64,000 bases of DNA from a virus. The position numbers and the translations under genes are program-made. A model generated the notes under the pieces. The model saw only the letters and a program-made list of their open reading frames with translations. It did not search any database and was not told the DNA's origin. Location: positions 31,356 through 95,355 of IMG/VR virus record IMGVR_UViG_3300049893_000899, one strand, 5' to 3'. This document shows, piece by piece, positions 3,899 through 64,000 of this stretch. How positions within the stretch are numbered: position 1 is the first letter of the stretch; each line of letters opens with the position of its first letter.

Positions 3899-4093
3899 AT
3901 GTTGTTAAAATTATTAAAGAGATTATTCAAATCTAAAACAAAATCAAAAAAAGATTCTAAAACAAAATCAAAAGAAGATGTTTTTATTCTTAGAAAATAT
4001 TGTAGTGGTTGTGATTCTATTCAAGTGCATCACGATAGCCCTTTTGAAGAGCCATTTTGTTATAGATGTTATAATAGACAACATGGGTATTAA
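3899..4093 (+). CDS. Small zinc-ribbon-like protein with basic N-terminus, 64 aa
   Basis: The N-terminal 30 residues are strongly basic (KRLFKSKTKSKKDSKTKSKE). The C-terminal part holds Y-C-S-G-C and F-C-Y-R-C pairs separated by about 17 residues, with a nearby H-H. Two CxxC knuckles of this kind suggest a zinc ribbon. The basic arm plus zinc ribbon would suit nucleic-acid binding, but this is inference. An upstream ATG at 3882 stops after eight codons, so 3899 is used. Confidence 0.6.
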   Translation: MLLKLLKRLFKSKTKSKKDSKTKSKEDVFILRKYCSGCDSIQVHHDSPFEEPFCYRCYNRQHGY

Positions 4094-4095
4094 AA

Positions 4096-4113
4096 AATAA
4101 AAGCCGTTTTACT
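4096..4113 (+). repeat. GCCGTTTTACT spacer element, copy 2 (short form)
   Basis: AATAAAAGCCGTTTTACT, identical over 18 bases to the copy at 4361-4378. It lies in the gap between two small genes. Confidence 0.75.
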
Positions 4114-4150
4114 TAGTAGGACGGTAATGTTAAATTTAAAAGATAAGATT

Positions 4151-4351
4151 ATGGACAACCTAAAATTGACGACACCATTTGTTCCACAGGAACAAAACAC
4201 TATCTTTATTATGCAAGATAATGGCACAAGAGAAATTCTAAAGCTTTGTGGAAACGGAGATATTTTCGTAAAAGGCAGATTAGCAGAAAATGACAAAGAA
4301 GTAGTTGATGCTTTAAGAGAGTTTCTCAAAGGGCAAGGCTTATTAAAATAG
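4151..4351 (+). CDS. Small conserved phage protein, 66 aa
   Basis: The start at 4151 (MDNLKLTTPFVPQEQ) is preferred over the ATG at 4127 because it follows the spacer repeat at the usual distance. The protein has the pattern L-K-L-C-G-N-G-D-I-F-V-K-G-R...E-N-D-K-E-V-V-D-A-L-R-E-F-L, which I recognise as a recurrent small protein in phages and mobile DNA of Bacteroidota; no function is known to me. It is probably a beta hairpin plus an amphipathic helix. Confidence 0.65.
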   Translation: MDNLKLTTPFVPQEQNTIFIMQDNGTREILKLCGNGDIFVKGRLAENDKEVVDALREFLKGQGLLK

Positions 4352-4360
4352 CCGATAACA

Positions 4361-4378
4361 AATAAAAGCCGTTTTACT
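4361..4378 (+). repeat. GCCGTTTTACT spacer element, copy 3 (short form)
   Basis: AATAAAAGCCGTTTTACT, 9 bases after the preceding stop codon and 30 bases before the next start. Confidence 0.75.
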
Positions 4379-4408
4379 CGGTTTGTAGTAACTTTAAAAT
4401 GAAATAAA

Positions 4409-4684
4409 ATGAGCAACACAACATTAAATTTAAACAGCGTGGGTACAACTACAAGCGTCAGTCTTTGGTCAACACCTGAAAGAGTAGATGTAATTGAAAA
4501 CTCTGATAGTATCGAGTTCGTGTATAAAGAAACTTCAATGATTTCCTACACATCAATTCCAGCACCACCACCACAAGTAAGAGTTTTCAAAATCGTCTTT
4601 TCTTGTGTAGATGGCAAGTGGAATAAATCGGAAAGAATTTATGGTCAAATTGTTCCTGCTGAAAATGAACGATACGTTTTTTAG
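4409..4684 (+). CDS. Small hypothetical protein, 91 aa
   Basis: Thr/Ser-rich N-terminus (MSNTTLNLNSVGTTTSVSLW), a proline run (SIPAPPPQV) near residue 53 and beta-strand-like C-terminus. Soluble, no recognised domain. It sits between two spacer repeats. Confidence 0.6.
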   Translation: MSNTTLNLNSVGTTTSVSLWSTPERVDVIENSDSIEFVYKETSMISYTSIPAPPPQVRVFKIVFSCVDGKWNKSERIYGQIVPAENERYVF

Positions 4685-4693
4685 CATTGCCTA

Positions 4694-4737
4694 TAACTAT
4701 CAGATATGTGCAACAAACAAATAAAAGCCGTCTTACT
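4694..4737 (+). repeat. Degenerate 22-bp repeat plus GCCGTCTTACT spacer element, copy 4
   Basis: TAACTATCAGATATGTGCA at 4694 matches the 22-bp repeats at 2649 and 5999 at roughly two thirds of positions. It is followed by AATAAAAGCCGTCTTACT at 4720-4737. The same order (22-bp repeat, then spacer element) is found at 5999-6056. Confidence 0.6.
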
Positions 4738-4751
4738 AAACGATTAAGAAA

Positions 4752-5243
4752 ATGGAAAAAGTATTAGAAAAATTCACTATTGATGATGTGGAGGTTGGTG
4801 ATGTTTTTCTTCATAAACACAATAAATCAAGATTTACTGTTTCAGAAAAACATAAAGATAAAGGTTATATTCTTTTAAAAAGTTATGGAGCACTTTGGGC
4901 TTTAAGTTTTTACTATTTCGATCTAATTAAAAAAAGTAATAAAACTGAAACACAAACAGAGGAACAATTAATAGAACAACAGCCAACCTCAATAAAATCC
5001 GTCTTATCAGGTATTGACAAGCTTCTAGAATACAAAGAAAGTAAGTATGGCAATGCACTAAACAACGATCGTTTAAAAGTGTTTTCTGGTAAATGCAAAT
5101 TTGGAGATATACTTGACGCAAAACTAAACAGAGTAGCCAACGGAGAAGAGCTACTAAAGAACGATGTTGTAGATATAGCAGGCTATCTAATCCTAACACT
5201 AAGAGAAAAAGGATGGGATGATTTTAGTGAGTTTATGGACTGA
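4752..5243 (+). CDS. Nmad1/DUF1599-like protein with N-terminal small beta domain, 163 aa
   Basis: Residues 1-60 form a beta-rich domain (DDVEVGDVFLHKHNKSRFTV). Residues 80-163 look like the nucleotide modification-associated domain 1 (DUF1599): a Y-K-E-S-K-Y-G-N-A-L segment, L-K-V-F-S-G, then I-L-D-A-K-L-N-R-V-A-N (120-130) and N-D-V-V-D-I-A-G-Y-L-I-L (137-148), with conserved D122, K124, R127, D138 and D141. That all-alpha MazG-related family occurs in phages alongside base-modification or nucleotide-pool enzymes. Substrate unknown. The gene ends M-D-stop inside a 20-bp sequence repeated 387 bases downstream. Confidence 0.6.
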   Translation: MEKVLEKFTIDDVEVGDVFLHKHNKSRFTVSEKHKDKGYILLKSYGALWALSFYYFDLIKKSNKTETQTEEQLIEQQPTSIKSVLSGIDKLLEYKESKYGNALNNDRLKVFSGKCKFGDILDAKLNRVANGEELLKNDVVDIAGYLILTLREKGWDDFSEFMD

Positions 5244-6070: not shown

Positions 6071-6457
6071 ATGAGCGAATTTAGAATAGATTACTTTGAA
6101 CTTATGTTCTTAGCAGAATCAGTATCACCAAAAGGACCTATTGCACGGTCAATGTGCTTTGATAGCTTCTCTGATAAGCACTACCACCACATGAATGAGG
6201 GACAACGATTGCAGTTCTTTAATTACGTGCAAAAGCAACCTTACTTTACACTAGAAGACGAGCAATGCAGGCACTTTTACGCAAGATTTAATCCACAGAA
6301 TCAATACAAAGTTTCTTGCTTCTACGATGGAAAGGCACAAACAGTAGATTGCTATAGATTTGAAGACGAGTATAGGGTATCTAGGAATAGATTTATAAAT
6401 AGTGACTACATTAAAAGTATCGTTAGGGTTTACGATGGAGTGGTTATCAAGCAATAA
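6071..6457 (+). CDS. Hypothetical protein, 128 aa
   Basis: Rich in aromatic residues and His (DSFSDKHYHHMNEGQRLQFF), with a C-terminal part (Y-R-F-E-D-E-Y-R...R-F-I-N-S-D-Y-I-K-S-I-V-R-V) that resembles small uncharacterised proteins in Bacteroidota phages. No catalytic motif identified. It lies between two long-form spacer elements. Confidence 0.65.
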   Translation: MSEFRIDYFELMFLAESVSPKGPIARSMCFDSFSDKHYHHMNEGQRLQFFNYVQKQPYFTLEDEQCRHFYARFNPQNQYKVSCFYDGKAQTVDCYRFEDEYRVSRNRFINSDYIKSIVRVYDGVVIKQ

Positions 6458-6482
6458 GGCGGCAATAATTGATGTCTTACTT
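6452..6482 (+). repeat. Long-form spacer element, copy 6 (variant right half)
   Basis: CAATAAGGCGGCAATAATTG then ATGTCTTACTT. The left half matches the 6028 copy; the hairpin's right arm is changed, so the stem is weaker. Confidence 0.65.
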
Positions 6483-6497
6483 AAATAATATTAATCT

Positions 6498-6986
6498 ATG
6501 GCAAATATTTGTGATGTATACGTTGAGTTCTACAACGTGAAAGATGAACAAAAACATCTTATTACTGAAGAAAACTTCAAGAATGAAGAAATCAAAACAA
6601 ACAACGACGGTTGGGTTGATATAGAGTTTGTTAATGAAGGACTAAACACGTTATCTATGTCCTCAGCGTGGTCAGCTCCTATTTCTTGGTTTGAAGGTTT
6701 TTGCGCTGAACATGGCTTAGATGGAAGAATGTATTTCTATGAGCCTGGATGTTGTTATCATGGATATGCTGACGTTACAGATGGCCACATTCAAACAACA
6801 TACTATGATAATAATTTTGAATATCTTTACCTACATAATAACGAAGGCTTCTGGGATGAAGTAAATTATTTCTTAGAAGAAGATATGCTAGAAGAAGAAG
6901 AATGGAATGAAAGAGTTCTTAAGTATATTTCTCTTGAAGATAAGAAAACATTAATTGAAATGATTGAAAAACAAAAAAAGGGATAA
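6498..6986 (+). CDS. Api92/YubB-like (DUF1281) protein, 162 aa
   Basis: Begins MANICDVYVEFYN and has S-S-A-W-S-A-P-I-S-W-F-E-G-F followed by R-M-Y-F-Y-E-P-G-C-C-Y-H-G-Y-A. This is the layout of Api92/YubB ferredoxin-fold proteins (MANWCxNxVxF start, WxPPxxW, Y-x-E-P/x-G-x-x-F-x-G), which occur on phages and plasmids with no firm function. The C-terminus is very acidic (LEEDMLEEEEW) then basic. It is the last plus-strand gene of the arm; its stop (TAA, 6984-6986) lies within the terminator stem. Confidence 0.6.
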   Translation: MANICDVYVEFYNVKDEQKHLITEENFKNEEIKTNNDGWVDIEFVNEGLNTLSMSSAWSAPISWFEGFCAEHGLDGRMYFYEPGCCYHGYADVTDGHIQTTYYDNNFEYLYLHNNEGFWDEVNYFLEEDMLEEEEWNERVLKYISLEDKKTLIEMIEKQKKG

Positions 6987-29900: not shown

Positions 29901-32132
29901 CAACATAGCATCAATAGGAGATATTACATAGAAAGTATTCTTTAATACAGTCTCAGTTCTTGTAGCTACAGCGTTATAAAGTAAATCTTTTCCGTGATGT
30001 TGTGAACCGGCTTTATTGTAACAATTGTTTACATAAGCTGTAATTAAAGTAAACAATCTAACTGTTTCATCTGGAGTTTTCCCATATTCTTCAAAGAAGA
30101 AAGCTATTGCCTCTTTAGATAAGGAATCTTTCTTTCCTTGAGACAATAATTCATATATAGTATTTACAAGAGAGTTTTGAGCAAGCTTTAACCCAGCTCC
30201 ATCAACAAGAGATCTAGCATACACACTGTTTAAATAAGCTAACTCAGAAGGAACTACAAACGTGTCCTTCTCTTCTATAGAGTCGGTATGAGTCCCTTCT
30301 CCGTATCTCAACAACCTCTCTAATATACCTTTAGCTTTAGGGTCAAGATTTATTGTCCTAATTAAACTCTGTCTAAACTTTTCCTTAGTAGCATCAGGTC
30401 TTGGATTCATTAATCCAGAATAAACTATATCTCTAAACAGCTTTTTTCTTAATCCAGTAAAAGCCATTGCAAGCTCATTGATTTTCTCTTCAATAGAAGA
30501 TAAAGACGTTTCAGAGAATATTCTACTTTGTACTATTGTTTGAGATTGACCACTTCCAACCTTAACATCTTCAGTAGAAGCATCATACATATTAGACTTC
30601 ACGTTAGCAAAAGCATTAAAGAAAGAAGCCTTAAACATTTCAAGATACTCTTTCTCAGCTTTAGTTGAACCTTCTTTTTCAAGAAGGCCAACTATCTGGT
30701 TTAGTTCCGGCTTGATCTTCGCGTATCTCTTCAATGTAGCAACCATATCAGCGTATCTAGTAACTATTGTATACTCGACCTCGCCATCAACCTCTCTTGA
30801 AGACACCTTATTAGATGTTGATTCAAGAATACTATTTAATGTCTTCCACATCACTTTAAATGAATGTGTTTTAGGAAGACCTGTTCTTTTATCTATAACT
30901 ATATTACCTTCAATGTCTCTTTCAAAGATACTTGATAAGAAAGACTTAACGCTTGCATCAACACTATTAATCTGGCTAACAGTATTTGAAGCTTCAAGGT
31001 TATGAACCTTATTATCATAGCTTTCTTCATCATCTCCCTCTTCTTCTGTGCTAACCTCGTCCTCTTTAGGGTCGTTGTTTTTGTCTTCAAATACTTCAAC
31101 CCCAACAGAAGAAGTGTTAGATGTGATATCTGGCTCTTTCTCCTCTTCTCTAAAGACAACACCTTTTTCTTTAAGGTTGGCTTTAAGTAATGTTTTAAAC
31201 TTATCTTCTTGCTGAAGTAGAGCTATTAAATTATCTTTATATTGGTCAGTATAGTTTTCTTTCACATAAGAAACCATCTTGTCAAAAAGAGAATTTCCTT
31301 CTTCATGCCCAGAGAATAAATCAAGGAAGTCTTCCTCTAATCCTTTCTTGTTACTTTTAGCTACTTCACTATTCAACCCAAATTCATCAATTAATATTGT
31401 TGAAGCAGAATCAACATAAGCACTCATTAAAGAGTCGGAAATAGGTCTTCTTATATAAGAAACGCCATTCTCGTTTGCTATTGTAAAGCTGTTTTTAATT
31501 GTTTCTTCAAACTTAATTAAATCCTTCTTATCCTTAAAGTTATCTTTAAACGATTTGAAAGCATTATAAAAAGTATCATTACCAAGTCCAGACTCTCCTG
31601 TCTTTGTCCACTGAATAAAGTCATTGTATATTCCTATTGCAGCATTTAACTCAGAATAGAATAGATTTCCTTTTGACAGCTTATCAAAGCTATCAATAAA
31701 ACCATTTCTATCGTAGCCTAAAAACACCTCAGCAAAGTATAAGATGTTGTTGTGATCAGAAACAATATCAAATTCAGTATTCTTTGATATAGCGTCAATT
31801 AGATTGTTGAAGTTTCCTTCATTAGTAATGTATAGATTTATTATCGGATCTACAACAGACAAATCTAAATTAGGAAACTCTTCTTTTATTTTTGAAGAAA
31901 CAATAGAGTTACCGCTTTTTTTAAGCTCTTCAATACTTTTGAATACGTTTACATCTTTCTCGTTTACTGTATTGAAAAAGAAATTGTTTACTATATCTTC
32001 AGCAAATGGAGCTAATGAATGTTTTTCTCCTTTAGCTTCAGCATCATGGAAAGATGTTGTAGCTATTGTTTCTCCTTTAGCTCTTGCTATAACGCTAAAA
32101 GTTCTCGACGTATTTATTGGGCAACTAGACAT
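20946..32132 (-). CDS. Giant virion protein: single-chain RNA polymerase plus zincin-like metalloprotease, 3728 aa
   Basis: The metal-binding loop of a beta'-type RNA polymerase is seen as G-S-D1567-Y-D1569-I-D1571-K-M, preceded 39 residues upstream by R-I-P-T-Q-K-L-S-S, the counterpart of the beta' NRxPTLH segment. crAss-like phages such as phi14:2 encode a virion RNA polymerase with this kind of DxDxD loop. A second enzyme motif, V-I-H2275-E-L-S-H2279-V-F, is a zinc metalloprotease HExxH. The rest includes long helical regions and, near the C-terminus, a hydrophobic segment (GIFAGSFYGLYLLSSLVAPG). The protein is probably packaged and injected to transcribe early genes; the zincin may process virion or host proteins. 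The polymerase call is strong; the exact domain limits are not resolved. Confidence 0.85.
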   Translation of the reverse strand: MSSCPINTSRTFSVIARAKGETIATTSFHDAEAKGEKHSLAPFAEDIVNNFFFNTVNEKDVNVFKSIEELKKSGNSIVSSKIKEEFPNLDLSVVDPIINLYITNEGNFNNLIDAISKNTEFDIVSDHNNILYFAEVFLGYDRNGFIDSFDKLSKGNLFYSELNAAIGIYNDFIQWTKTGESGLGNDTFYNAFKSFKDNFKDKKDLIKFEETIKNSFTIANENGVSYIRRPISDSLMSAYVDSASTILIDEFGLNSEVAKSNKKGLEEDFLDLFSGHEEGNSLFDKMVSYVKENYTDQYKDNLIALLQQEDKFKTLLKANLKEKGVVFREEEKEPDITSNTSSVGVEVFEDKNNDPKEDEVSTEEEGDDEESYDNKVHNLEASNTVSQINSVDASVKSFLSSIFERDIEGNIVIDKRTGLPKTHSFKVMWKTLNSILESTSNKVSSREVDGEVEYTIVTRYADMVATLKRYAKIKPELNQIVGLLEKEGSTKAEKEYLEMFKASFFNAFANVKSNMYDASTEDVKVGSGQSQTIVQSRIFSETSLSSIEEKINELAMAFTGLRKKLFRDIVYSGLMNPRPDATKEKFRQSLIRTINLDPKAKGILERLLRYGEGTHTDSIEEKDTFVVPSELAYLNSVYARSLVDGAGLKLAQNSLVNTIYELLSQGKKDSLSKEAIAFFFEEYGKTPDETVRLFTLITAYVNNCYNKAGSQHHGKDLLYNAVATRTETVLKNTFYVISPIDAMLKISQIQDIISGSLHEENTIGAEGKNVYSINKEASSNRFISDVKNGANKRKPGGNILNLYGRISEDAFSSAYKGGMSFFQKVLSFSQIIKTRGEEKNKHTSENTITEDVSIYYKEQINALRSPVFNGKFDVNGNPTGSIIYPLRMLQPADAGIERFYSVSLTEYVDYRRKNPGSNIRAFASEFIKTEIIKFLEAEIEAYKAYEAAKNMPFTKFIGIKHYDKKYKNSSILDLDFSSQEEVNAIFDSKDGKHVFNKSNSAILDKVVNDIIDSAVKEMREEMFDFGSLASRNMSGMVAFEAVTLIDTALNMRQFNANAIHPGFFKSAVEIVKRYKALVSPSKESYIFNKPTFKIAVLNDIERDSGGLYSFLVKTAVESKLMSEAEAKALYNPYLKNNEADAQGFVTLDRYVDFRRSQGDWDESNNTLVEKLKDKNHVPTFYEKQQALNLFGPQKPFHYSISSRTTNINEDGTASLNHLLAVPTMLKYSMIPIIPAIHKGTELASLLENMEKNGIDEVLFDSAVKMGSQGAIDFSEAINGKDLFAIELENRYHGMQQVTPNKITEGKSLRSIGIQFKKLMKNVKSGLVYYTKNGVEYTGEKYLEETDAIEAAITERLTYEFMNNLGLDFDSGNIKDVKKFNEGIKRKLLKVDAIKNNKELVDFIKEKTSSEITPFNLDEVGPSSYQIISSVISSFQKGVVNPSMPGGSAVQVSPVGLNSMSEEEKSSIMFLDGRTSAKLMHPLPGKAGECLVPLSFFKNIPGLEKMSYEEITDLMKNNKDVFNKAIGYRIPTQKLSSIDSLDIVGILPPHLGDSIILYPSITGKTGSDYDIDKMFLIFKSIKVYKNKQGKFVIRNSNQSDGSSAGVISQMHDELFNHWYNMLNSSNTEAYLDKMAPVDASELKDDYTKDILELQGRDLDAINNKSFLDIMNPITQLRSKSDNMGGQDGIGATANQQNMAAVEIGYGYQNPILSMIASKFNVSQDQGNAKTEVLSYARERVKNTAVSIVDAISSFLNGFVDMAKDPFLSYVNINKTTSGMLFAMIRAGVHPMRAMLYLNHPVIFAYSKYGENGMIQYLTSKGIDFSGNDLAAFSKAAEYNFKMKKFKYVKVDVSADSLAKDIKDFNSGSMTTINMSYIISMLKMYHELNSLSSELSTQATELKFDKLSQRSSFELRNRLYKNNANMSKNYLSNNTYLGSLRNSFAKLSVLLNSISIVSNETVTTYISTILNDTSKENIANRKKFYSAIKSIGGLINVEKEMASYVYNKFFASKVFSDSNKNNRMIEDFVAVIEGNVNTDNKVIQVIKKNYEKNREKERTRRQVQNVYRLIAISKTGGEASKEARAAILASNNLEDLTPADKFKLALKFNRGEIHSDLSNEISESFDDAPMPIKIGVLLNYFMTGRTPVSGSSNVIPVTIKFLNRIGYSTALDLAGKMIEESPIFFADQFIDNIILKNQSGSVQDEYQDYYNKMSEFDKIDDEKRTARKIGLLEAKLGANQVIIDPNMKAWGSVTYVDGLPVVKLRSREYLSRDTVIHELSHVFIDISGGAYTSEAMAAYDQAMQTDIADRVSDRYPELKEGSELHRKEVLAVALGLKGTEIFENAEESIFGKIRNWVNKVYNIIKKKLGLDYDAIALMANEVLNSSIYNNMPTINIDEVMENRFNFKSDGPMREAKERYEGSDNAGNFEYNYKKEALDIATNTLIASIRDDENVDLEGFMDGLNKMLSEAVSAASKSGIDTSSGSQNINKMVETIDQIRSEIGKASDFYVLRQLVEMAMDVYNDSIVITDLISSITRDPLRQILDDVDIDGTNPGKMTLEQFYAQHANQQERWDELTQIKKAISILGVFNLISKQISPKLEFASKGSTEDVEIANLSVHVGDIFASLKRFKNIQASLDGGIPDTALQSKIDSELATIKEEYRKIVGIVKRLSGDNSTTKNIEDTLTLPDNPSYAELSDLINKTIGLDAGVIDFEGTKTNVETSEENMTSLENIINRLLAKRYHKQTLNDLSEALRSIERKISEANSSLEKSSKKVLAFTLAFEDRGHINVRMMQARDLFRKIKGGIGSFKDKAVRDNLINIGVQAFQKNKEKWLYERYNTIYKRLSEDERDISSLVLAFCDKKMINDSIITPFVAYLEKAKDNVRIKYQEEFRGKDNLASMYRDYVNKNGWNKTLGVNYEEVNEKFFYVQRVNDEDRLCLVSEYDWMRLEAERQRYIAIGMENYKKALEEYDLKAKQINDRFESGEYDKAQYREYMDLNEQQKKTIKSTYYVGKQIDIFKKENYEKDAKKTDGKGRLIPLPKYKSAKWAALTTEEKKIADGFEILLHKSNGYLEKGDMLINNELPFVGKTSHELYAEGKLKEGFKEGINESIKNQQSKDLDYVNDAEERASNEEAIVRRSTFNGEPIQRPPVKFRDKGIKIEDRSKDILSILMMNYHSAINFEEMSKAAFMGETLKALLREQNINIKEGGKKVITKYFNKAFNTKGNSQRLKAAESVFDEYVLGKRREDMQFGKGYSISKILGTITSISAKAKLNGNIEGGLVNATAGTVSSMIAFKANNLLDSNLIGEASTEYFKNIVDSMKNYSADDAMRTDKLTAITVFFNSRLNFNEAFVQDIMNDKTVRAFFGAAGHMPFAVGEHMISTVLTIAKLKGIRCIAENGEYLKADGTTTPEISEAVSLYDSIIFDEKSRRISISPKVFATTSNFTSRIMRNDKGEIDERSYNNMVSEIGLNISDLISNTQGYYGNRGLSEMDKKVAGPALMSLRKFLPRKMMMTFAGWQYALKDFDTLYNPETGEYDEDLINGNAFGDEAIMGMVTAEIIQIMEGYRKTEGSTAEKVLGGVKAAVGKNDDKVSEIIAYNASRLRWTGIFAGSFYGLYLLSSLVAPGGDDEEGGFIENIRFLSPYIALRVFNELTYFANPGELLRSFNNVSQSFGFISDLAKLAGDLFTGDIDKLPKDLGRIVSHDNYVRLFMDGHLKNKINGLENGNY

Positions 32133-50717: not shown

Positions 50718-51404
50718 TTAATTAGTGTCTATACCATCGTTAACAGTATCTGGTGGCACTGTCAACTGCATTCTCATTTCCACGTTAGCAACCATAGACA
50801 TAAGCCTATCCATATTACTAGCTTCAAAAGGATATTCATAATTAAATCCTACATTACAAGGCTCATTGTTGTCTGGACAATCACAAGTTCTAAACTTATT
50901 AGCCTTTGTAGGATCCTCAAATATTCCTTGAATATTAATGTAAGATAATAAGCCTCTAGGATTAACTATGTAAATATAACCATCAGCATAAAACCATCTA
51001 GGCTCTTTGTTGGTATACTTTCTGAAGCTATCCCAGTATATGTTAGAATATGTTGTTTCTTGATATCTTGGAGCATCTAAACCAAGCTCTCCAACATACA
51101 TAAATCCTGTACTCTTTTCTTTTGGAGCTATTGTAGCCGGGAGTTCAAACTTAGTTCTAAGAACACATCCATATCCATCGCAACCACACCCTGAAGGATC
51201 AACTTCAATAAGCTCAACCTTCCCTAAGTTCTGTATTACATCAGTAGATATTTGGCTACTCTTAGAAGCGTCTTGTTTTAGTATTACAGCTCTGTAATAG
51301 TTAACTATAAAGGCCCATTGTCTGTCTGATATCTTTTCATCATCAGAAGTATGTCCGCCTGCCTTTAAGTTTTTTATGTTATATATTATCTCGCTAAGAA
51401 GCAT
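50718..51404 (-). CDS. Cys-rich tail ring/adaptor protein, 228 aa
   Basis: The start at 51404 (MLLSEIIYNIKNLKAGGHTS) is preferred over the longer frame to 51488, whose extra 28 residues are low-complexity Ile/Lys/Phe from the AT-rich intergenic region. Two cysteine clusters, P-S-G-C-G-C-D-G-Y-G-C and C-D-C-P-D-N-N-E-P-C, may bind metal. The rest is beta-rich (YADGYIYIVNPRGLLSYINI). Position beside the IHF-like and ring proteins suggests a head-tail adaptor. A divergent promoter region lies upstream. Confidence 0.6.
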   Translation of the reverse strand: MLLSEIIYNIKNLKAGGHTSDDEKISDRQWAFIVNYYRAVILKQDASKSSQISTDVIQNLGKVELIEVDPSGCGCDGYGCVLRTKFELPATIAPKEKSTGFMYVGELGLDAPRYQETTYSNIYWDSFRKYTNKEPRWFYADGYIYIVNPRGLLSYINIQGIFEDPTKANKFRTCDCPDNNEPCNVGFNYEYPFEASNMDRLMSMVANVEMRMQLTVPPDTVNDGIDTN

Positions 51405-51553
51405 ATCTTTAATGTTCAATAATTTAATTACGAAATTTAATGAAAAAAAACTAAAAATCTTAATGTTAATATTTTTAATTAAAATCAAAAGTAATGTTTT
51501 GTTTTTTTTAATAAACGCTTTTTATTATTCGGTAAATTTACCATATTTACTTC
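51405..51553. promoter_or_regulatory. Divergent, very AT-rich intergenic region
   Basis: A 149-base gap between the minus-strand ring protein gene and the plus-strand KilA-N gene. On the minus strand, TACTTTTG (complement at 51486-51493) fits the Bacteroidota -7 box TAnnTTTG, about 80 bases before the ring gene start; no clear -33 TTG was found. On the plus side there is a 12-bp palindrome at 51531-51542. Promoter assignment is tentative. Confidence 0.4.
51531..51542. promoter_or_regulatory. Perfect 12-bp palindrome, candidate operator
   Basis: GGTAAATTTACC reads identically on both strands and lies 11 bases before the start codon of the KilA-N gene; a further GTAAATA-type half-site (complement of TATTTAC) follows immediately. 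The position suits repression of the downstream gene, possibly by its own product. Confidence 0.45.
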
Positions 51554-52240
51554 ATGAAAAATTCAGTTATACTAAATAGTTCTGATCGCGAGTTATTCGG
51601 AACAATAATAAGACAAGATACGAAAACACAAATGTTAAGTGTTTCAGATTTACAAAAAGCTTATGAAAAAGGAAGATGGCAATATGGTTGGACTGGGCAA
51701 ACAATAAGTCAACTAATGCTTACTGATGAATTGGCTAAAAAGTGCTACGGAGTGCTTCTTGAGTGCGATCTGGTAAAATGCGACATGTCGAATTTTATGG
51801 AAATGGTAAAAAATAGCAGCCTTATAGTTGTTTTAAAAAAACTAGAAGCATATAAAGTAACAGGAAGAGGAGACAATAAACAAATATTTGCTCACCCATA
51901 TATTTTTGTTACAATAGCAATAGAGTTGAATTATATTTTATATGGAAAGGTTATAAAATGGATTTCAGACAGCCTTATTTTCAACAGAATAGAAGCAGGC
52001 GTACTATATCAACCAATGAATTCAGCTATAAAGTCAATCATAAATAATCCTGACTATTCAAAATATGCAATATTAATAAACAAAAAAATATTCGGGCAAC
52101 ATATAACAGGAATGAGAAATATGGCTTCAGCTAAAGAATTAAAGTCGATAGCTAAATTAGAAGAAACCGTAACGAAAGCTATTGAGATGGGATGGGTTAA
52201 AAATGAAGAAGATTTAATTAATGCAATAAACAACTTGTAA
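51554..52240 (+). CDS. KilA-N-domain-type protein (moron), 228 aa
   Basis: Plus-strand gene inside the minus-strand structural block. The pattern F-G-T-I-I-R-Q-D-T-K-T...L-S-V-S-D-L-Q-K-A-Y (residues 15-36), then A-H-P-Y-I-F-V-T-I-A-I-E-L-N (about 109-122) and V-I-K-W-I-S-D...N-R-I-E-A-G fits KilA-N-like proteins widespread in Bacteroidota phages and chromosomes. KilA-N domains bind DNA and often act as antirepressors or regulators. The C-terminal helical tail ends A-I-E-M-G-W-V-K-N-E-E-D-L-I. It has its own leader palindrome and terminator, so is probably expressed independently of late genes. Confidence 0.7.
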   Translation: MKNSVILNSSDRELFGTIIRQDTKTQMLSVSDLQKAYEKGRWQYGWTGQTISQLMLTDELAKKCYGVLLECDLVKCDMSNFMEMVKNSSLIVVLKKLEAYKVTGRGDNKQIFAHPYIFVTIAIELNYILYGKVIKWISDSLIFNRIEAGVLYQPMNSAIKSIINNPDYSKYAILINKKIFGQHITGMRNMASAKELKSIAKLEETVTKAIEMGWVKNEEDLINAINNL

Positions 52241-52244
52241 TATT

Positions 52245-52388
52245 ATGACAGATAAACAGAAAAGAGATAAAATAATCCTAGAGATCAGCACGATAAGAAA
52301 AAATCTAAGGATTGCTATAGACAAAAAGATGTGGAGTTACGTAGATTCACAGATACAAAGATTAGTTGCTCTTGAGAGTAAGATATAA
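52245..52388 (+). CDS. Small coiled-coil protein, 47 aa, downstream of KilA-N gene
   Basis: ATG 4 bases after the KilA-N stop, too short for most gene callers. MTDKQKRDKIILEISTIRKN begins an amphipathic helix that continues to the end (SQIQRLVALESKI). It is probably co-transcribed with the KilA-N gene and could be its partner or a small regulator. The stop runs into the terminator. Confidence 0.55.
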   Translation: MTDKQKRDKIILEISTIRKNLRIAIDKKMWSYVDSQIQRLVALESKI

Positions 52389-52422
52389 AAAAAGCCTATC
52401 AAATGATAGGCTTTTTATTTTT
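52389..52422. terminator. Bidirectional terminator closing the moron
   Basis: AAAAAGCCTATC / GATAGGCTTTTT stem with an AAAT loop, A run on the left and T-rich sequence on the right, between the converging 47-aa gene (plus) and the head protein gene ending at 52437 (minus). Confidence 0.9.
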
Positions 52423-52436
52423 AGTAAACCAAATGA

Positions 52437-53702
52437 TTACAAAGAAGCAATCTCAGTAAACCCTAAAACACCATTGAAATATCCATTTAAGATATCCAAG
52501 AAGTTGTCTCCTGAGTTAGTAAATTGAGCTGTTCCTGTAGGAGCAAACAAATGAATTGCAATTGGATTTTGCTTCAAGTGCATGAAGTCACCTCTATTGA
52601 TTGTGTCTGCCTCAATGTTAATTACAGAGTAAGTTGCATTGAAGTCAACAGCAGACTGAGGGTTGATTTTTGAATCATACCATTCAGTTCTTGAAGTAAC
52701 ACCACTATAACCTTGAGCAAAGAACTCATAGTCATAAACCTGTCTTGGAGTACCAACACCACCAAATGCAGGAGTAGCAACAGTTTTGATAACTGGAGTT
52801 TGAGTGTCTAATGGATTAGATTCAACAAACACTGCATCGAAATCAGTATACTCAAAAGTATCAATTCCGTTCCATTTAACAGTTTGAGAAACTAATTTGA
52901 AACCAAACTTAGTTGAACCAGTAACAGTTACTTTTCCAGTAGAACCAGATGATAAAGTAGTAGACGTTCCGTTGTAAGGAGAATCTAACTTAACAACAGT
53001 TGAACTGATAACGCTAGATACTAAATAAGTAGCATCAGTAGTAGCCGTACCAAAACGAACAACATCACCAACAGCTAAACCATGAGCGCCACCGTAAGTA
53101 ACATATTTACTTCCTTTAACTACAGTTGCAGTTTGAGCGATATCAACATCAGCACTGTCAGCAACAACACATAAGTCAACGAATCTTCCGTCATTTAAAG
53201 ACTTGTTAGTTCCGTTTTGAACTCTTGTGTAGAATAACTTTAAGATGTCGTAAGCTAATTCTGATCTTGTAGCAGAAACACCAGTTACAACATTGAATAA
53301 TTCACGAGTCTGTTTTTGATCGTAAATTCTCTTGTCGTCTAACATTAATACATTTAATGTGTACTCAGTTTCATCAGCAATGTTGATGTTACCAGTAGTA
53401 CCATTATATCCTAAGTAAACTGTCTTTAAAGTAGGAGCAGCATAAGCAGCAGACTCATATTTAGTAACAGCAGAACCTTGGATTGGAGCAGATAAACGGA
53501 AAGTACCGTCACCAGTTCCTTGTGCAACGAAAACTTTACCAGCAGCCGGAATTGAAGCAGCAGCAGAAGCAGTCGTAACAATAGACATATCCTCTTTTAA
53601 CAAGAATAAGTCACCCTTTTTGATTCCAGGTAGAGTGGTAACACCGTTAGTGTTTGCGCCATCTCCAATACCTACGAAATTAACTCTCGAGAAATTTGAC
53701 AT
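52437..53702 (-). CDS. Head auxiliary/decoration-type structural protein, 421 aa
   Basis: A Gly/Ala/Thr/Val-rich beta protein (GTGDGTFRLSAPIQGSAVTK; VVKGSKYVTYGGAHGLAVGD; SGSTGKVTVTGSTKFGFKLV), with an L-N-V-L-M-L-D-D-K-R-I-Y-D-Q-K-Q helix near residue 140. It starts after TTTAAATAT-ATG, the same leader as the capsid gene. Codon and residue bias are those of abundant virion proteins. Its position two genes after the capsid protein suggests a capsid auxiliary or portal-vertex protein. No family was firmly recognised. Confidence 0.6.
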   Translation of the reverse strand: MSNFSRVNFVGIGDGANTNGVTTLPGIKKGDLFLLKEDMSIVTTASAAASIPAAGKVFVAQGTGDGTFRLSAPIQGSAVTKYESAAYAAPTLKTVYLGYNGTTGNINIADETEYTLNVLMLDDKRIYDQKQTRELFNVVTGVSATRSELAYDILKLFYTRVQNGTNKSLNDGRFVDLCVVADSADVDIAQTATVVKGSKYVTYGGAHGLAVGDVVRFGTATTDATYLVSSVISSTVVKLDSPYNGTSTTLSSGSTGKVTVTGSTKFGFKLVSQTVKWNGIDTFEYTDFDAVFVESNPLDTQTPVIKTVATPAFGGVGTPRQVYDYEFFAQGYSGVTSRTEWYDSKINPQSAVDFNATYSVINIEADTINRGDFMHLKQNPIAIHLFAPTGTAQFTNSGDNFLDILNGYFNGVLGFTEIASL

Positions 53703-55380: not shown

Positions 55381-55415
55381 TATAAAACAAAGAAAGGACT
55401 TTCGCCCTTTCTTTG
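55381..55415 (-). terminator. Intrinsic terminator after the major capsid gene
   Basis: On the minus strand CAAAGAAAGGGCGAAAGTCC pairs with the following CTTTCTTTG, then TTTTATA. The stem is about 11 bp with one mismatch. It lies 12 bases after the capsid stop and would lower expression of the downstream head genes relative to capsid. Confidence 0.85.
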
Positions 55416-59023: not shown

Positions 59024-61474
59024 TTATTTTTTTCTAGCAGCTTCAGCATTAGTCTTGTTCTTAAGAGCAGTCTTAGCTTTAAGCTTCTCTATCTCCATCT
59101 TATTCTCCATCTCCTCTCGCTTAAGCTCTCTATCCTTCTCTTTCTCCTTCTCATTAGAAGTTCTATCCTTCTCTCTCTGTTGAGCTTCACTCGTCTGTCT
59201 TGACTTCTCGATAGCTTTATTACCCCATTCAATAACATCAGGGATATTATTCATATTTCTATCTTTCTCTTCATCAAAACCAGAAGCAACAATAGTAGCT
59301 TTAAGAATATCATTCTCTCTATCAAGTTGATTCTCCATAGCCTCAAACTCTCTAGCCTCTCTCTTATCTTGTAATTGAGCCTGAACAGCTTGATCTCTTG
59401 ATTCTCTTTCAGCTTGAGCTTGTTGAGCTTGACTCTGTTCAAGTCTAACCTCTCCATTCTCAATATATTCAATACCTTCAATAAGAGAAGCAGATCTGTA
59501 TAATTTAGCCAAGTCAGAAAGATTAACCTTACCCTGTTGTAAAGCAGCTTCTGCCAATGCTTCAATGCGCATTTTATTTCTCTTATCTTTAGAGTAGTTA
59601 GAGATAAACACTCCAATATCAGAATCCATTAACATCTCTCCGTCAACAAGTAAAGATTGTACTGTATTGTCTTTCGACATATAAGTGAATCTTTTCCCTC
59701 CAGCAGTAGTAAACTTAGACATCTCAATATAAGCTGTTAATACAGCTTGTTTAATCTCGTCATGTCTAAAGAAGTAATGCTCAGTAATATAGCCTGAATT
59801 AATTAAAGCTGTATTAAGACCAGTAGTAGTTTCATATTGAGAAGTGGAGCCAAGTTGTTGTGGGTTCATTCCGCACACTTGGTCCATCAGGAACTCAATC
59901 TTAGCCATAATACCAATATACTGTTGTACTACGTTAGCTAAAGACAAGTCTATACTCTGGAACTGATTAAACCTAGAAACAGAGTTAGGATCTCCATCTC
60001 TACCTTCTTCCATTGAGTTAATCCAAGCAATACCAAGGTTATCAAAGTAGTACATCCATTGCTTCATGTCTATACCGTTTGATTTAGGTATCTGAGCCAA
60101 GTCAAACACCATCTTCTTACCTTTTGCTTTAGCTATCTCATTTTCAAGTCTTAACCAGATAGTATTATACAACATCTGATACGGAGCAAGTAAATCAACT
60201 ATACTTGTCGCTTCAGAGTTTAAGTTATTATACAATCCACCAATATAAGGAGACCACACCTCTGTAGGGCTGTCAATCTTTCTCATTTGGTTTCTACAAG
60301 GATTAATGTCAACATAGATGTCAGCGCCAATCTTATGTCCCATCCAATATTCTGGCAACCATTGCCACTCTAAAGTAGCCCCAATAGCTTTAAGCTCTTC
60401 TGTTAGCTTGAATGAATCATCTACGTCTTCCGTCATTGGCATCCCAGATTCAGGATCAACATACGAAAGATATCCAATCTTCTTCATTGACTTCCACACA
60501 CAAGTAACAACTCTAATGTTTCCATTGTATCGTTGATTTACATTGTATGTATCTAAATCCTTCATTGTAGCCGCATCATACGCGAATCCAGGGTACATGA
60601 TATTGTTACTCATTGAGTTAACAATCTCCCCATCATCAAGCATCTTCAGTTGAGCTTCAGTAAGGTATAATCCAAATTCATCTATAACTTCCCCTCTTGA
60701 CATGAAGCGTTCCTCTCTCTGCCAATCAGATAAGTGAACCCATTCAGTCTCAGGCCCTTTTTCAAACTCAAAGTTTAATGGGTTTACAACCCTTAAAGAC
60801 GTCCTTCCATTTACCGCCCCAACATAATAAACCTCTTCTGAAGCTATTGCGGCATGGCTGAATCCTTTGTTAAACTTAGCCGGCAATCTATCTGAGTGCA
60901 TTGCATCTTCAACTATCACTGAAGCGTAATGTTCTCTGATGTCTCTAATTGTTCTGCCGGTGTTCATTTGTTTCTTAAGCTCCTTGAAAGAAAGGATTGA
61001 ATCCATCTTTTGCTCAATCTCTGGATCATTTGGATCAAGCTGAAAAATAGCCATTAACTTCTGCTGTGTAGTCATTAACAACTCTTGTGTCTGTTGTTCT
61101 ACCTTAGAGTTAACAACGTGGCCACCAACTCCAACAACATGGTAATCAAACGGTCGCTCTAACTCTTCCCCAACCAATCTATCAACCCTAATCCTTACTA
61201 AGTTATAGTCTCTAAGCTTAGAAGGAGAACCTCCAAACTGTCCGCCAAACTTAAAAGGGTCTGTCACATACTTATAATTCTCCTCATTTATTCTGGAGTT
61301 CATTAAGTCATAGTTAGCCTGTTTGCTTTGCTTAGATGAACGACCATTCCTCTTCAAAGAGAAAGCCATACCATCAACAGCATCAACACATTGCTCTCTC
61401 CATTTGTCAGTCTTCTTTGACAAAGGAAGCATCTGTTGAGGTAAATACCTCTGGATATTAATGTCTGTACTCAT
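59024..61474 (-). CDS. Portal protein, 816 aa
   Basis: Starts MSTDINIQRYLPQQMLPLSK. The order of segments is that of large crAss-like portals: clip/wing region (YNLVRIRVDRLVGEELERPF), a Q-L-D-P-N-D-P-E-I helix, a stem-like part (EATSIVDLLAPYQMLYNTIW), and a crown with a long charged coiled coil (residues ~640-816: QAQAERESRDQAVQAQLQDK; EKEKDRELKREEMENKMEIE). It forms the dodecameric vertex through which DNA enters and leaves. It abuts the terminase gene and precedes the internal protein by 3 bases. Confidence 0.85.
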   Translation of the reverse strand: MSTDINIQRYLPQQMLPLSKKTDKWREQCVDAVDGMAFSLKRNGRSSKQSKQANYDLMNSRINEENYKYVTDPFKFGGQFGGSPSKLRDYNLVRIRVDRLVGEELERPFDYHVVGVGGHVVNSKVEQQTQELLMTTQQKLMAIFQLDPNDPEIEQKMDSILSFKELKKQMNTGRTIRDIREHYASVIVEDAMHSDRLPAKFNKGFSHAAIASEEVYYVGAVNGRTSLRVVNPLNFEFEKGPETEWVHLSDWQREERFMSRGEVIDEFGLYLTEAQLKMLDDGEIVNSMSNNIMYPGFAYDAATMKDLDTYNVNQRYNGNIRVVTCVWKSMKKIGYLSYVDPESGMPMTEDVDDSFKLTEELKAIGATLEWQWLPEYWMGHKIGADIYVDINPCRNQMRKIDSPTEVWSPYIGGLYNNLNSEATSIVDLLAPYQMLYNTIWLRLENEIAKAKGKKMVFDLAQIPKSNGIDMKQWMYYFDNLGIAWINSMEEGRDGDPNSVSRFNQFQSIDLSLANVVQQYIGIMAKIEFLMDQVCGMNPQQLGSTSQYETTTGLNTALINSGYITEHYFFRHDEIKQAVLTAYIEMSKFTTAGGKRFTYMSKDNTVQSLLVDGEMLMDSDIGVFISNYSKDKRNKMRIEALAEAALQQGKVNLSDLAKLYRSASLIEGIEYIENGEVRLEQSQAQQAQAERESRDQAVQAQLQDKREAREFEAMENQLDRENDILKATIVASGFDEEKDRNMNNIPDVIEWGNKAIEKSRQTSEAQQREKDRTSNEKEKEKDRELKREEMENKMEIEKLKAKTALKNKTNAEAARKK

Positions 61475-63676
61475 TTATTCAAATAGTTTTTCTTCAAGAA
61501 AGAAATCCTTTCTAATCTTTTTACCCGAACCTTCCTCTATCTTTATGTAATGATGTTGGAGTCTATTGCATATAAGTAATAAGAACGCTATTACACGGTC
61601 AAAGTTACCTGTCTTATTATACGATATCAACTCCTTCAACAAACCAGCAGAGAATATCTTGTTTACTCCAAGAACACCAGCTTCATCTTCTTCATTAAGC
61701 CAGTCCCTCGCGTAAATCTCAAGCTCCTCCTTAATCTTGTTTGTCATATGTATGCCGTAATCCCTATCTACATTACTCTTTTCTGTAGCCTTAAGAAATG
61801 TAGGCATTTTTGCTAACAAATGTAACGATTTTTTTTGCTTAAAGTGAAACTTCATTGAATTTTTCTCATTCTCGTACAGATTGGTAGCGTTATAATAAGC
61901 ACACAATCTCCTAACATTCTCATGGTGTTCTTCTGCCCTATCAGGTCTTGCAGTGTATTCAGCAACAATAAACTCCCTCGCGCTGCCGTGTCTAAAGTCG
62001 CCAATCTTATAGATAAAAGTAGATCCTAACGAAACTGAGTTAGGAGCCTTGTCTTGGTCATAGGGGTCTGTCGCTGCAATATACATACCATAAGGAATCT
62101 CTCCAGGTGCCGGGTGTTCCCATATCTGTACTGAACCAGTGGTATCATCTGTAGATTTCATTGGAAACCCACAAGCTCTTTTCTTGTTATGTAAATCCGG
62201 AGACCACTTAACGCCATACGTAGCATTAGGATCCGAAACTAAATCACCTAGTTGTCCATTTACTTGAGGAATATCGCAGTTTTCTACAAACTTCAACTGA
62301 TCAATTAAGTCTGCAATAGGGAATATGTTACCTCCGGATATTAAGAAAGCTTCAGAAGGCACAATAGGGTTGTTTTGTAGTTCATTATTCAACGGTTCTT
62401 TACTTGAACCTGAAGCCAACTTGTCCCTCTTGCTGTCAATATATTTCATTGCCTGTTCCTTCTTAGTGAACAGGTTATTGTCTTTGAAGTCATTCAAGCC
62501 TTTATAGTAAGGCAAGAAGTAACCTATCTTCTTTGCTGAGCCTTCAAAAGCATCAGAAAATCCTAAACAGTCAAACTGCTCAGGGTTATAGAATATCTCT
62601 TTAAGCTGTTCTGTAGCTCCAGAGATCATTTCACCACCGGTACCAAAAACCCATATAACTCCAAATTTAGAAGAGGAGTTCATGGTATTCTCTTTCAAGG
62701 CACCCATGGCATCAATAAGGTTAGACATAAAACCTGCCTCTTCAATAAAGACTAAGTTGTTACGCAAACCGTTACCTGCTGTAGCCTTCTCTTGGAATGT
62801 TCTATGTGATATCATAGAACCACTACCCTTCACCTTACCAGTCTTCAAGTCTTTAACACTTGCCAACATATCCTTACCAGGCATCAATGACCCTGAAGTT
62901 TCATGCTGGAAAGGAGCCATATAGTACATATCCCCCTCTTCAAAAGAACCATATAGGTTATTATACCCATCAAGGAACTTATCAAGCAAACCCTTGCTAT
63001 ACTTAGCATCAAACGCTCCAACAAGAGAAGAACTTCGTAAAGGCTCCCCTGCTTTTTTAGCATCTACATACTGTTCATATCCTTCAGCTCCATCTGTAAT
63101 AAAGTTATGACATAACAAAGCCGCAGCAAAGAAAGACTTACCAGTACCCCTGGCCTCAAGGTCAACAACATTCTTAGCTTCGTTCTTATATAAAGGAATA
63201 CCACTTAGATTGTGGCTATCCCAAAGATAACTCAACGCGTCTACATACTCCTTAAAAGAACCATCTTCTTTAAACACTGTAACATCAAGGAAGTGAAACC
63301 TATAGTCTTCTTTTATAGCTTCAAAGTCTCCATTATACTCTTCGTTAAGTTCTTTTACAAGCCTAACACAGGTCTTTTCTTTATCATCACTGAAGCCAGA
63401 AAAGCCTTTAGCTACAAGATAGATATAGGCTTTCTCCCATTCATTATCTCGTAGCCAAGGCCTTCCTAATATCTCCTGTTTAGAAAACCTATCTTTCTTA
63501 ACCTTAATCTTGAAGTGGTTAACATAGAAGTAAAGAACCCCAGGGCAATAATACCCTCCAGCCCACATACCATCAAAGACTCTTCTCTTCTCGTCCTTCC
63601 AGTATATCTTGTACTCCATACTTTTAGGATGAAAGATTGGAGCCTCGTTGAAAGTATATAAACTAGGATTTCTCAT
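61475..63676 (-). CDS. terL: Terminase large subunit, 733 aa
   Basis: An ATPase-nuclease motor that packages DNA. Walker A-like E-A-R-G-T-G-K-S (174-181), Walker B N-L-V-F-I-E-E-A-G (307-315), coupling motif V-F-G-T-G-G-E (343-349), and a nuclease Asp in I-A-A-T-D537-P-Y-D-Q-D-K are visible. The long N-terminal part (F-D-G-M-W-A-G-G-Y-Y-C-P-G-V-L-Y-F-Y-V-N) is the 'pGxYFyLN' motif common to this terminase group. It overlaps the upstream gene by 14 bases and the portal follows directly. Confidence 0.93.
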   Translation of the reverse strand: MRNPSLYTFNEAPIFHPKSMEYKIYWKDEKRRVFDGMWAGGYYCPGVLYFYVNHFKIKVKKDRFSKQEILGRPWLRDNEWEKAYIYLVAKGFSGFSDDKEKTCVRLVKELNEEYNGDFEAIKEDYRFHFLDVTVFKEDGSFKEYVDALSYLWDSHNLSGIPLYKNEAKNVVDLEARGTGKSFFAAALLCHNFITDGAEGYEQYVDAKKAGEPLRSSSLVGAFDAKYSKGLLDKFLDGYNNLYGSFEEGDMYYMAPFQHETSGSLMPGKDMLASVKDLKTGKVKGSGSMISHRTFQEKATAGNGLRNNLVFIEEAGFMSNLIDAMGALKENTMNSSSKFGVIWVFGTGGEMISGATEQLKEIFYNPEQFDCLGFSDAFEGSAKKIGYFLPYYKGLNDFKDNNLFTKKEQAMKYIDSKRDKLASGSSKEPLNNELQNNPIVPSEAFLISGGNIFPIADLIDQLKFVENCDIPQVNGQLGDLVSDPNATYGVKWSPDLHNKKRACGFPMKSTDDTTGSVQIWEHPAPGEIPYGMYIAATDPYDQDKAPNSVSLGSTFIYKIGDFRHGSAREFIVAEYTARPDRAEEHHENVRRLCAYYNATNLYENEKNSMKFHFKQKKSLHLLAKMPTFLKATEKSNVDRDYGIHMTNKIKEELEIYARDWLNEEDEAGVLGVNKIFSAGLLKELISYNKTGNFDRVIAFLLLICNRLQHHYIKIEEGSGKKIRKDFFLEEKLFE

Positions 63677-64000
63677 TCGCTTCTCTCTCTCTTCTTTCTT
63701 CTAAACTACCATAACTAAGTCTACATAAAGCAGTGAAGTCCATTTTGTCCCTCTCTTCTTCTGATAACTTATAAAACTCAGGTCTAGCGTGCTTAACACG
63801 CCTTCTTAATGTCCACACTCCAAGGCCAGGTAATATTATACTCTTAACCTCTGGATCGTCCATCATCTTAGTTATCAAGTCAAACTGAGCCATAAACACT
63901 AAGTCTATATCCTCCGGCTTTAACTTAGTACCATCAGCACTAACTCCACCAAGTCTCTCAATAACTCTCTTATAAATTTTTAATCTTTGCTGTGTTAACA
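63663..64000 (-). CDS. HU/IHF-like protein upstream of terminase (5' end outside window)
   Basis: The frame stays open to the window edge, so the GTG at 63899 is not taken as the start. The segment E-D-I-D-L-V-F-M-A-Q-F-D-L-I-T-K-M-M then D-D-P-E-V-K-S-I-I-L-P-G-L-G-V-W-T-L-R-R follows the IHF/HU pattern (helix, then G-x-x-V-x-L-x-G-F-G-x-F-x-L-R), and ARPEF follows where HU has RPGRNP. The C-terminus is charged helix. Upstream of terL this position is often held by a small terminase; a HU-like fold acting in packaging is possible. Both readings are open. Confidence 0.5.
   Translation of the reverse strand, partial: LTQQRLKIYKRVIERLGGVSADGTKLKPEDIDLVFMAQFDLITKMMDDPEVKSIILPGLGVWTLRRRVKHARPEFYKLSEEERDKMDFTALCRLSYGSLEERREREANEKS

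Follow-up and report, generated by a model that had tools for sequence, protein, structure and literature searches.

A reverse-oriented KilA-N-family gene among the late genes of a crAss-like phage: a probable moron at an unusual address

The 64,000-nt stretch of DNA analyzed here, called the window, covers positions 31,356 to 95,355 of a virus record of 95,355 bp, IMGVR_UViG_3300049893_000899. The virus can be assigned to the crAss-like phages because its capsid protein matches PF23898 (E 3.9e-137) and ring proteins 1, 2 and 3/4 were also matched. Between two of its late genes lies a short unit that is read in the opposite direction and encodes a protein of the KilA-N family; we refer to this gene as kilA. 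We consider it reasonably probable that the unit is a horizontally acquired moron for a DNA-binding-type KilA-N protein, that it settled between one late terminator and the late promoter that follows, and that it is read from a host-type promoter and influences replication or early gene expression. Put simply, it is a fairly ordinary borrowed gene, a known kind of moron, in an unusual place. Four observations made on sequence carry this view: the unit is absent from relatives, the terminator at the junction is conserved, the protein belongs to a recognizable family, and its own relatives reside in foreign phages. The unit and its borders are as follows.

50718-51407, minus strand: ring protein 2 gene, bordering the insertion on one side (PF25702, E 6.4e-31; position conserved in relatives).
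51408-51553: divergent intergenic region of 146 bp and 15% G+C, which must hold the promoters of kilA (plus strand) and ring protein 2 (minus strand).
51554-52240, plus strand: the KilA-N-family gene of 228 amino acids (aa), apparently acquired; an open reading frame (ORF) with relatives of 49-71% identity in other phages, a profile link to PF04383 proteins, and matches to PHROGs 6095 and 2657.
52389-52416, usable on both strands: hairpin terminator with a perfect 12-bp stem, ancestral to the upstream late gene and with equivalents in 19 of 19 relatives.
52437-53702, minus strand: late gene of 421 aa that borders the insertion on its other side; in relatives its place between ring protein 3/4 and ring protein 2 is conserved.

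The late arm has been described as the most conserved block of crAss-like genomes (PMC7886860). In the window it runs unbroken on the minus strand from 7025 to 63899 (about 57 kb) and leaves only four intergenic gaps longer than 25 bp. The largest of these, at 51408-52436, contains the only convincing plus-strand gene of the arm. An earlier note, made from the letters of the window alone, had described a unit opposed to all surrounding genes, and this description stands: kilA and a 47-aa ORF behind it both read on the plus strand, and the genes around them read on the minus strand.

A search with the capsid protein recovered 27 crAss-like contigs at 54-68% identity, and their gene order matches that of the window wherever the region is present. 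At all 18 junctions between the 421-aa gene and ring protein 2 that could be resolved, the kilA unit is missing. The two genes are separated by about 65-106 bp at 17 of these junctions, which do not represent 17 independent phages because two of the contigs (L012 and L036) are near-identical. Moreover, a search with the family profile and PF04383 found no kilA relative elsewhere in 18 crAss-like records, several of which are fragments. Only one genome, then, is known to have the unit at this junction. This is the opposite of the uniform presence that the earlier note had named as contrary evidence, and its proposal of a moron inside the structural operon agrees with the absence from resolved junctions, the opposed orientation, and the unrelated phages in which the relatives of the gene are found. 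A literature search that mostly covered papers available without subscription retrieved no report of KilA-N genes in crAss-like phages.

The terminator has a different history from the gene that ends beside it. A hairpin followed by a run of T residues lies after the 421-aa gene in each of the 19 crAss-like relatives, with or without an insert, and for this reason we regard the terminator as part of the ancestral junction rather than as specific to the unit. A terminator owned by the unit was rejected on the same ground. The bidirectional terminator of the earlier note is therefore real as a two-strand hairpin, but it marks the end of the upstream late unit. The simplest history, reading from the sequence, would be that the terminator and the promoter were already in place and that the kilA unit was inserted between them. 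We also considered a transposable element and rejected it, since neither terminal repeats nor an insertion footprint at the site in the window is convincing; no endonuclease gene was found there either.

Other cargo has been placed at the same position. The eighteenth resolved junction carries an insert of 5.4 kb with a 1485-aa fibre-like gene and small genes (L023:14345-19752), and a truncated contig carries another insert (L017:7750-8704). The junction of the 421-aa gene and ring protein 2 is thus a possible cargo site. The unit resembles morons, which sit between phage structural genes with their own promoter and terminator, in that it is absent in relatives, has its own orientation and a candidate promoter, and is flanked by a terminator. 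It differs from them in that the terminator was already present at the junction, and in that the phage, for which no prophage expression is known, is probably not temperate.

Recognition of the protein as a KilA-N family member depends on profile comparison. No Pfam family, PF04383 included, matched the 228-aa protein up to E 1. Nothing in NCBIfam or PADLOC matched it, and a PF04383 search across the whole record gave no match. Nevertheless, when the subfamily of the window protein was compared by hhalign with four phage proteins, the alignment had a probability of 99 (E 7e-18), and all four of these proteins match PF04383 (best E 1.7e-16). Remote relatives with 22-28% identity occur in Pseudoalteromonas phage Pq0 (tblastn, E 2e-10), in Vibrio phages, and in gut phage fragments; in the alignment with them, six of eight proteins match Pfam KilA-N. 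The earlier claim of a KilA-N-type gene is consequently borne out through these PF04383-matching relatives, and not by a direct Pfam match.

Compared with phage KilA-N proteins (PF04383; PHROGs 6095 and 2657), the window protein shares the profile link over the KilA-N region, the matches to both PHROGs, and the R..G.P..A..D..R..G positions that are kept with PF04383-matching relatives. However, Pfam does not detect it or its close relatives; these proteins have about 30 extra residues in the N-terminal half and lack a KilAC domain. PHROG 6095 bears the name "amidase," and we rejected this function because its matching relatives here carry KilA-N domains rather than lytic enzymes. Given the KilA-N matches among the aligned relatives and the profile link, the name itself is probably misleading.

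A predicted structure, built from nine sequences, has a mean predicted local distance difference test score (pLDDT) of 84. Its viral structural neighbors include KilA-N proteins, with template modeling (TM) scores below 0.45 among the matches listed. The best neighbor among solved structures is DdrC of Deinococcus radiodurans (Foldseek E 1.2e-3, probability 1.00), which is of similar length and is a DNA-binding, DNA-condensing protein (PMC5436757). Yet the TM-score is only 0.33, the root-mean-square deviation is 9 A, and profile searches of Protein Data Bank (PDB) sequences gave no DdrC match. This resemblance of a model is a lead and not a family assignment, and a remote relationship between KilA-N proteins and DdrC is possible.

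The genomic homes of the relatives provide clues to function. The closest relatives lie in other viral contigs, and similarity between the kilA loci at the DNA level is essentially limited to the coding region. Cellular genomes scanned with the single protein yielded no useful lead, nor did viral contigs scanned with ring protein 2 and the 421-aa protein. Among eight such loci (L002 and L040-L046), only the contig of L046 has a crAss-type capsid match. That contig (IMGVR_UViG_3300033566_000030) is divergent and its capsid match is partial (E 1.6e-26); its kilA relative is 49% identical and lies outside any recognized structural block. The commonest recognizable neighbors of kilA relatives are replication genes: a Toprim primase/helicase in L002, DnaB in L040, a weak match to a replisome organizer in L041, Lin1244_N together with DnaB in Pq0 and Vibrio phage 242E40-1, and an O-like initiator in Vibrio phage D67. 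In L044 the relative is near the terminase. Because the relatives are frequently found beside replication genes, we favor a role for the protein in replication or early gene expression.

The same neighborhoods bear on whether the protein might instead be a superinfection-exclusion or abortive-infection factor similar to BstA, with its own promoter, the ability to block DNA replication by competitors, and perhaps a self-protecting DNA element near its start. BstA, which is KilA-N-like, halts the replication of phage DNA (PMC8585504), and the two proteins share a KilA-N-like domain of DNA-binding type, the status of accessory phage gene, and a link to phage DNA replication. The position of the unit apart from the late operon and the frequent association of the family with replication genes would both fit such a factor. 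However, BstA is about 307 residues long and possesses a second domain, the PADLOC scan matched the window protein to neither a BstA model nor any other convincing one, and no sequence link between the two proteins was shown. In addition, no aba-type terminal direct repeat was identified near the kilA start, and the relatives in other phages lie inside early operons rather than standing free. We therefore judge a BstA-like factor to be unlikely.

Phage antirepressors can contain KilA-N and KilAC domains, and the earlier note had proposed that the unit may control lysogeny-like or carrier states. A gut phage fragment (L006) indeed has an antirepressor-type gene with both KilA-N and KilAC domains close to its kilA relative (3977-5044 and 6195-6950). 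Furthermore, crAss-like phages persist with their hosts, and carrier states are possible for them (PMC10136315). Against such a regulator, tyrosine integrase (PF00589) is absent from 15 records (that of the window and 14 with a kilA relative, some of them fragments), a negative that leaves room for plasmid-like prophages; the control search was positive in 14 of 14 genomes. The window protein has no detectable KilAC domain, no repressor or partition gene was recognized among the plus-strand proteins scanned, and published work describes crAss-like phages as, to all appearances, strictly lytic (PMC10136315). With replication genes as the commonest neighbors of the relatives, control of lysogeny is not supported; a carrier-state role is conceivable, but we consider a regulator of either kind very unlikely.

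A further alternative is that kilA is a selfish passenger, or a decaying gene, that brings the phage no benefit and is moved by neighboring homing endonucleases. GIY-YIG-type endonuclease genes are located near the kilA relative in Vibrio phage D67, L044 and L046, and the restriction of the unit at this site to one genome would also be expected of a passenger. On the other hand, the reading frame is intact, residues that are invariant in the family are kept, the gene is 70% identical to two unrelated loci, and the window site has neither an endonuclease gene nor a clear footprint. We give this alternative very little credence.

How kilA might be transcribed can be addressed by the intergenic region, in which two candidate signals were noted.

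51432-51439, minus strand: weak candidate -7 element TAAATTTC for ring protein 2, with one mismatch, a degree of mismatch that is common by chance.
51531-51542: perfect palindrome GGTAAATTTACC, which contains TAAATTTA (51533-51540); exact, but not above chance.

The sequence TANNTTTG is the consensus of the Bacteroidota -7 element. A perfect copy occurs no more than 45 bp upstream of the kilA start in six of eight relatives (these six include L042 and L043, which are near-identical contigs), compared with 5.7% of shuffled upstream regions. Judging by this difference, kilA genes as a family seem to have a host-type promoter directly upstream. The corresponding candidate in the window is TAAATTTA, which lies 13 nt before the kilA start and has one mismatch to the consensus. 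An element similar to TANNTTTG is often close to the ring protein 2 start in relatives as well. A scan for sigma-70 sites found promoter-like sites to be no more numerous than in shuffled sequence.

The palindrome itself, to which the earlier note had drawn attention, is exact yet unexceptional. Among 146-bp stretches of equal composition, 37% should contain a perfect palindrome of 12 bp or more (P ~0.37), and a second one, TTTTAATTAAAA, is present nearby at 51473-51484. The proposal that it serves as a conserved operator was rejected both for this lack of significance and because the whole is not repeated upstream of relatives, where only GGTAAATTT recurs (in L042 and L043). Thus, the description of the unit as self-contained is half right, given an unremarkable palindrome and a terminator that belongs ancestrally to the upstream late unit.

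These elements suggest how the unit could operate. The gene would have entered the late arm in reverse orientation, at a permissive gap with the terminator of the head-gene transcript on one side and the ring protein 2 promoter region on the other. Cargo at that gap, in either orientation, would leave the late transcripts intact. A Bacteroidota-type promoter belonging to kilA would let host RNA polymerase transcribe it separately from the late genes, and the transcript would use the terminator already in place. The virion polymerase of crAss-like phages is believed to be responsible for early and middle genes, with the late genes left to host RNA polymerase (PMC10136315). A host-type promoter inside the late arm could let the host polymerase read kilA independently of the late program, and transcription of the gene might accordingly be early or independent. 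The protein would presumably bind DNA and modulate DNA replication or early gene expression, either of its own phage or of a co-infecting one.

Several points weigh against this explanation as a whole. The promoter candidate in the window is mismatched and is not significant alone, and the structure comparison is weak, as its top matches indicate. Five loci with a kilA relative (L044, L045, L046, L006 and L007) do not adjoin recognized replication genes. The nearest crAss-like relatives are just 68% identical in capsid, which limits dating of the insertion, and the unit could have been lost from all relatives instead of gained, although this is less likely.

If the unit is an acquired moron, the crAss-like late arm would have at least one permissive cargo site, insulated from the outset by its terminator and promoter, and a KilA-N gene of a family frequently associated with replication modules would be able to move into it. 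A broader proposal is that the junction where the head-operon terminator meets the promoter of ring protein 2 serves crAss-like phages as a site for differing accessory genes, fibre-like in some and a KilA-N gene here, and that the KilA-N protein is a mobile factor of inter-phage competition, shared among Bacteroidota phages, that blocks replication by competitors. We hold this proposal to be improbable. The BstA precedent makes action against competitors testable. Should the protein indeed inhibit competitors or tune replication, it would give experimenters a way to ask how these seemingly lytic phages manage to persist alongside their hosts.

The other plus-strand ORF of the unit lies between kilA and the terminator.

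52245-52388, plus strand: 47-aa ORF, a possible second gene, unproven; it begins 4 nt after kilA, ends at the terminator, and has no relatives.

The earlier note had treated this ORF as a partner of kilA. The ORF is present, but a partnership is unproven: no relatives were found among phage records or fetched loci, and it was not seen downstream of the other kilA genes inspected. On these grounds, a conserved antitoxin or partner was rejected. A stop-free stretch of this length has a chance probability of about 0.01-0.04 and the codon scores are ambiguous; the ORF may be a real gene without being an established partner.

Elsewhere in the record, the plus-strand genes of the left part include replication-type ones (DnaB_C, Toprim, 5'-3' exonuclease and helicase). 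The ends of the record are identical at 4,834 of 4,835 bases (window positions 59166-64000 compared with L048:1-4835). Either the assembly is circularly redundant, which would make the genome about 90.5 kb, or the phage has genuine long terminal repeats. A second strong two-sided hairpin at 55388-55415, inside a 48-bp gap after the major capsid gene, probably trims or ends the capsid transcript.
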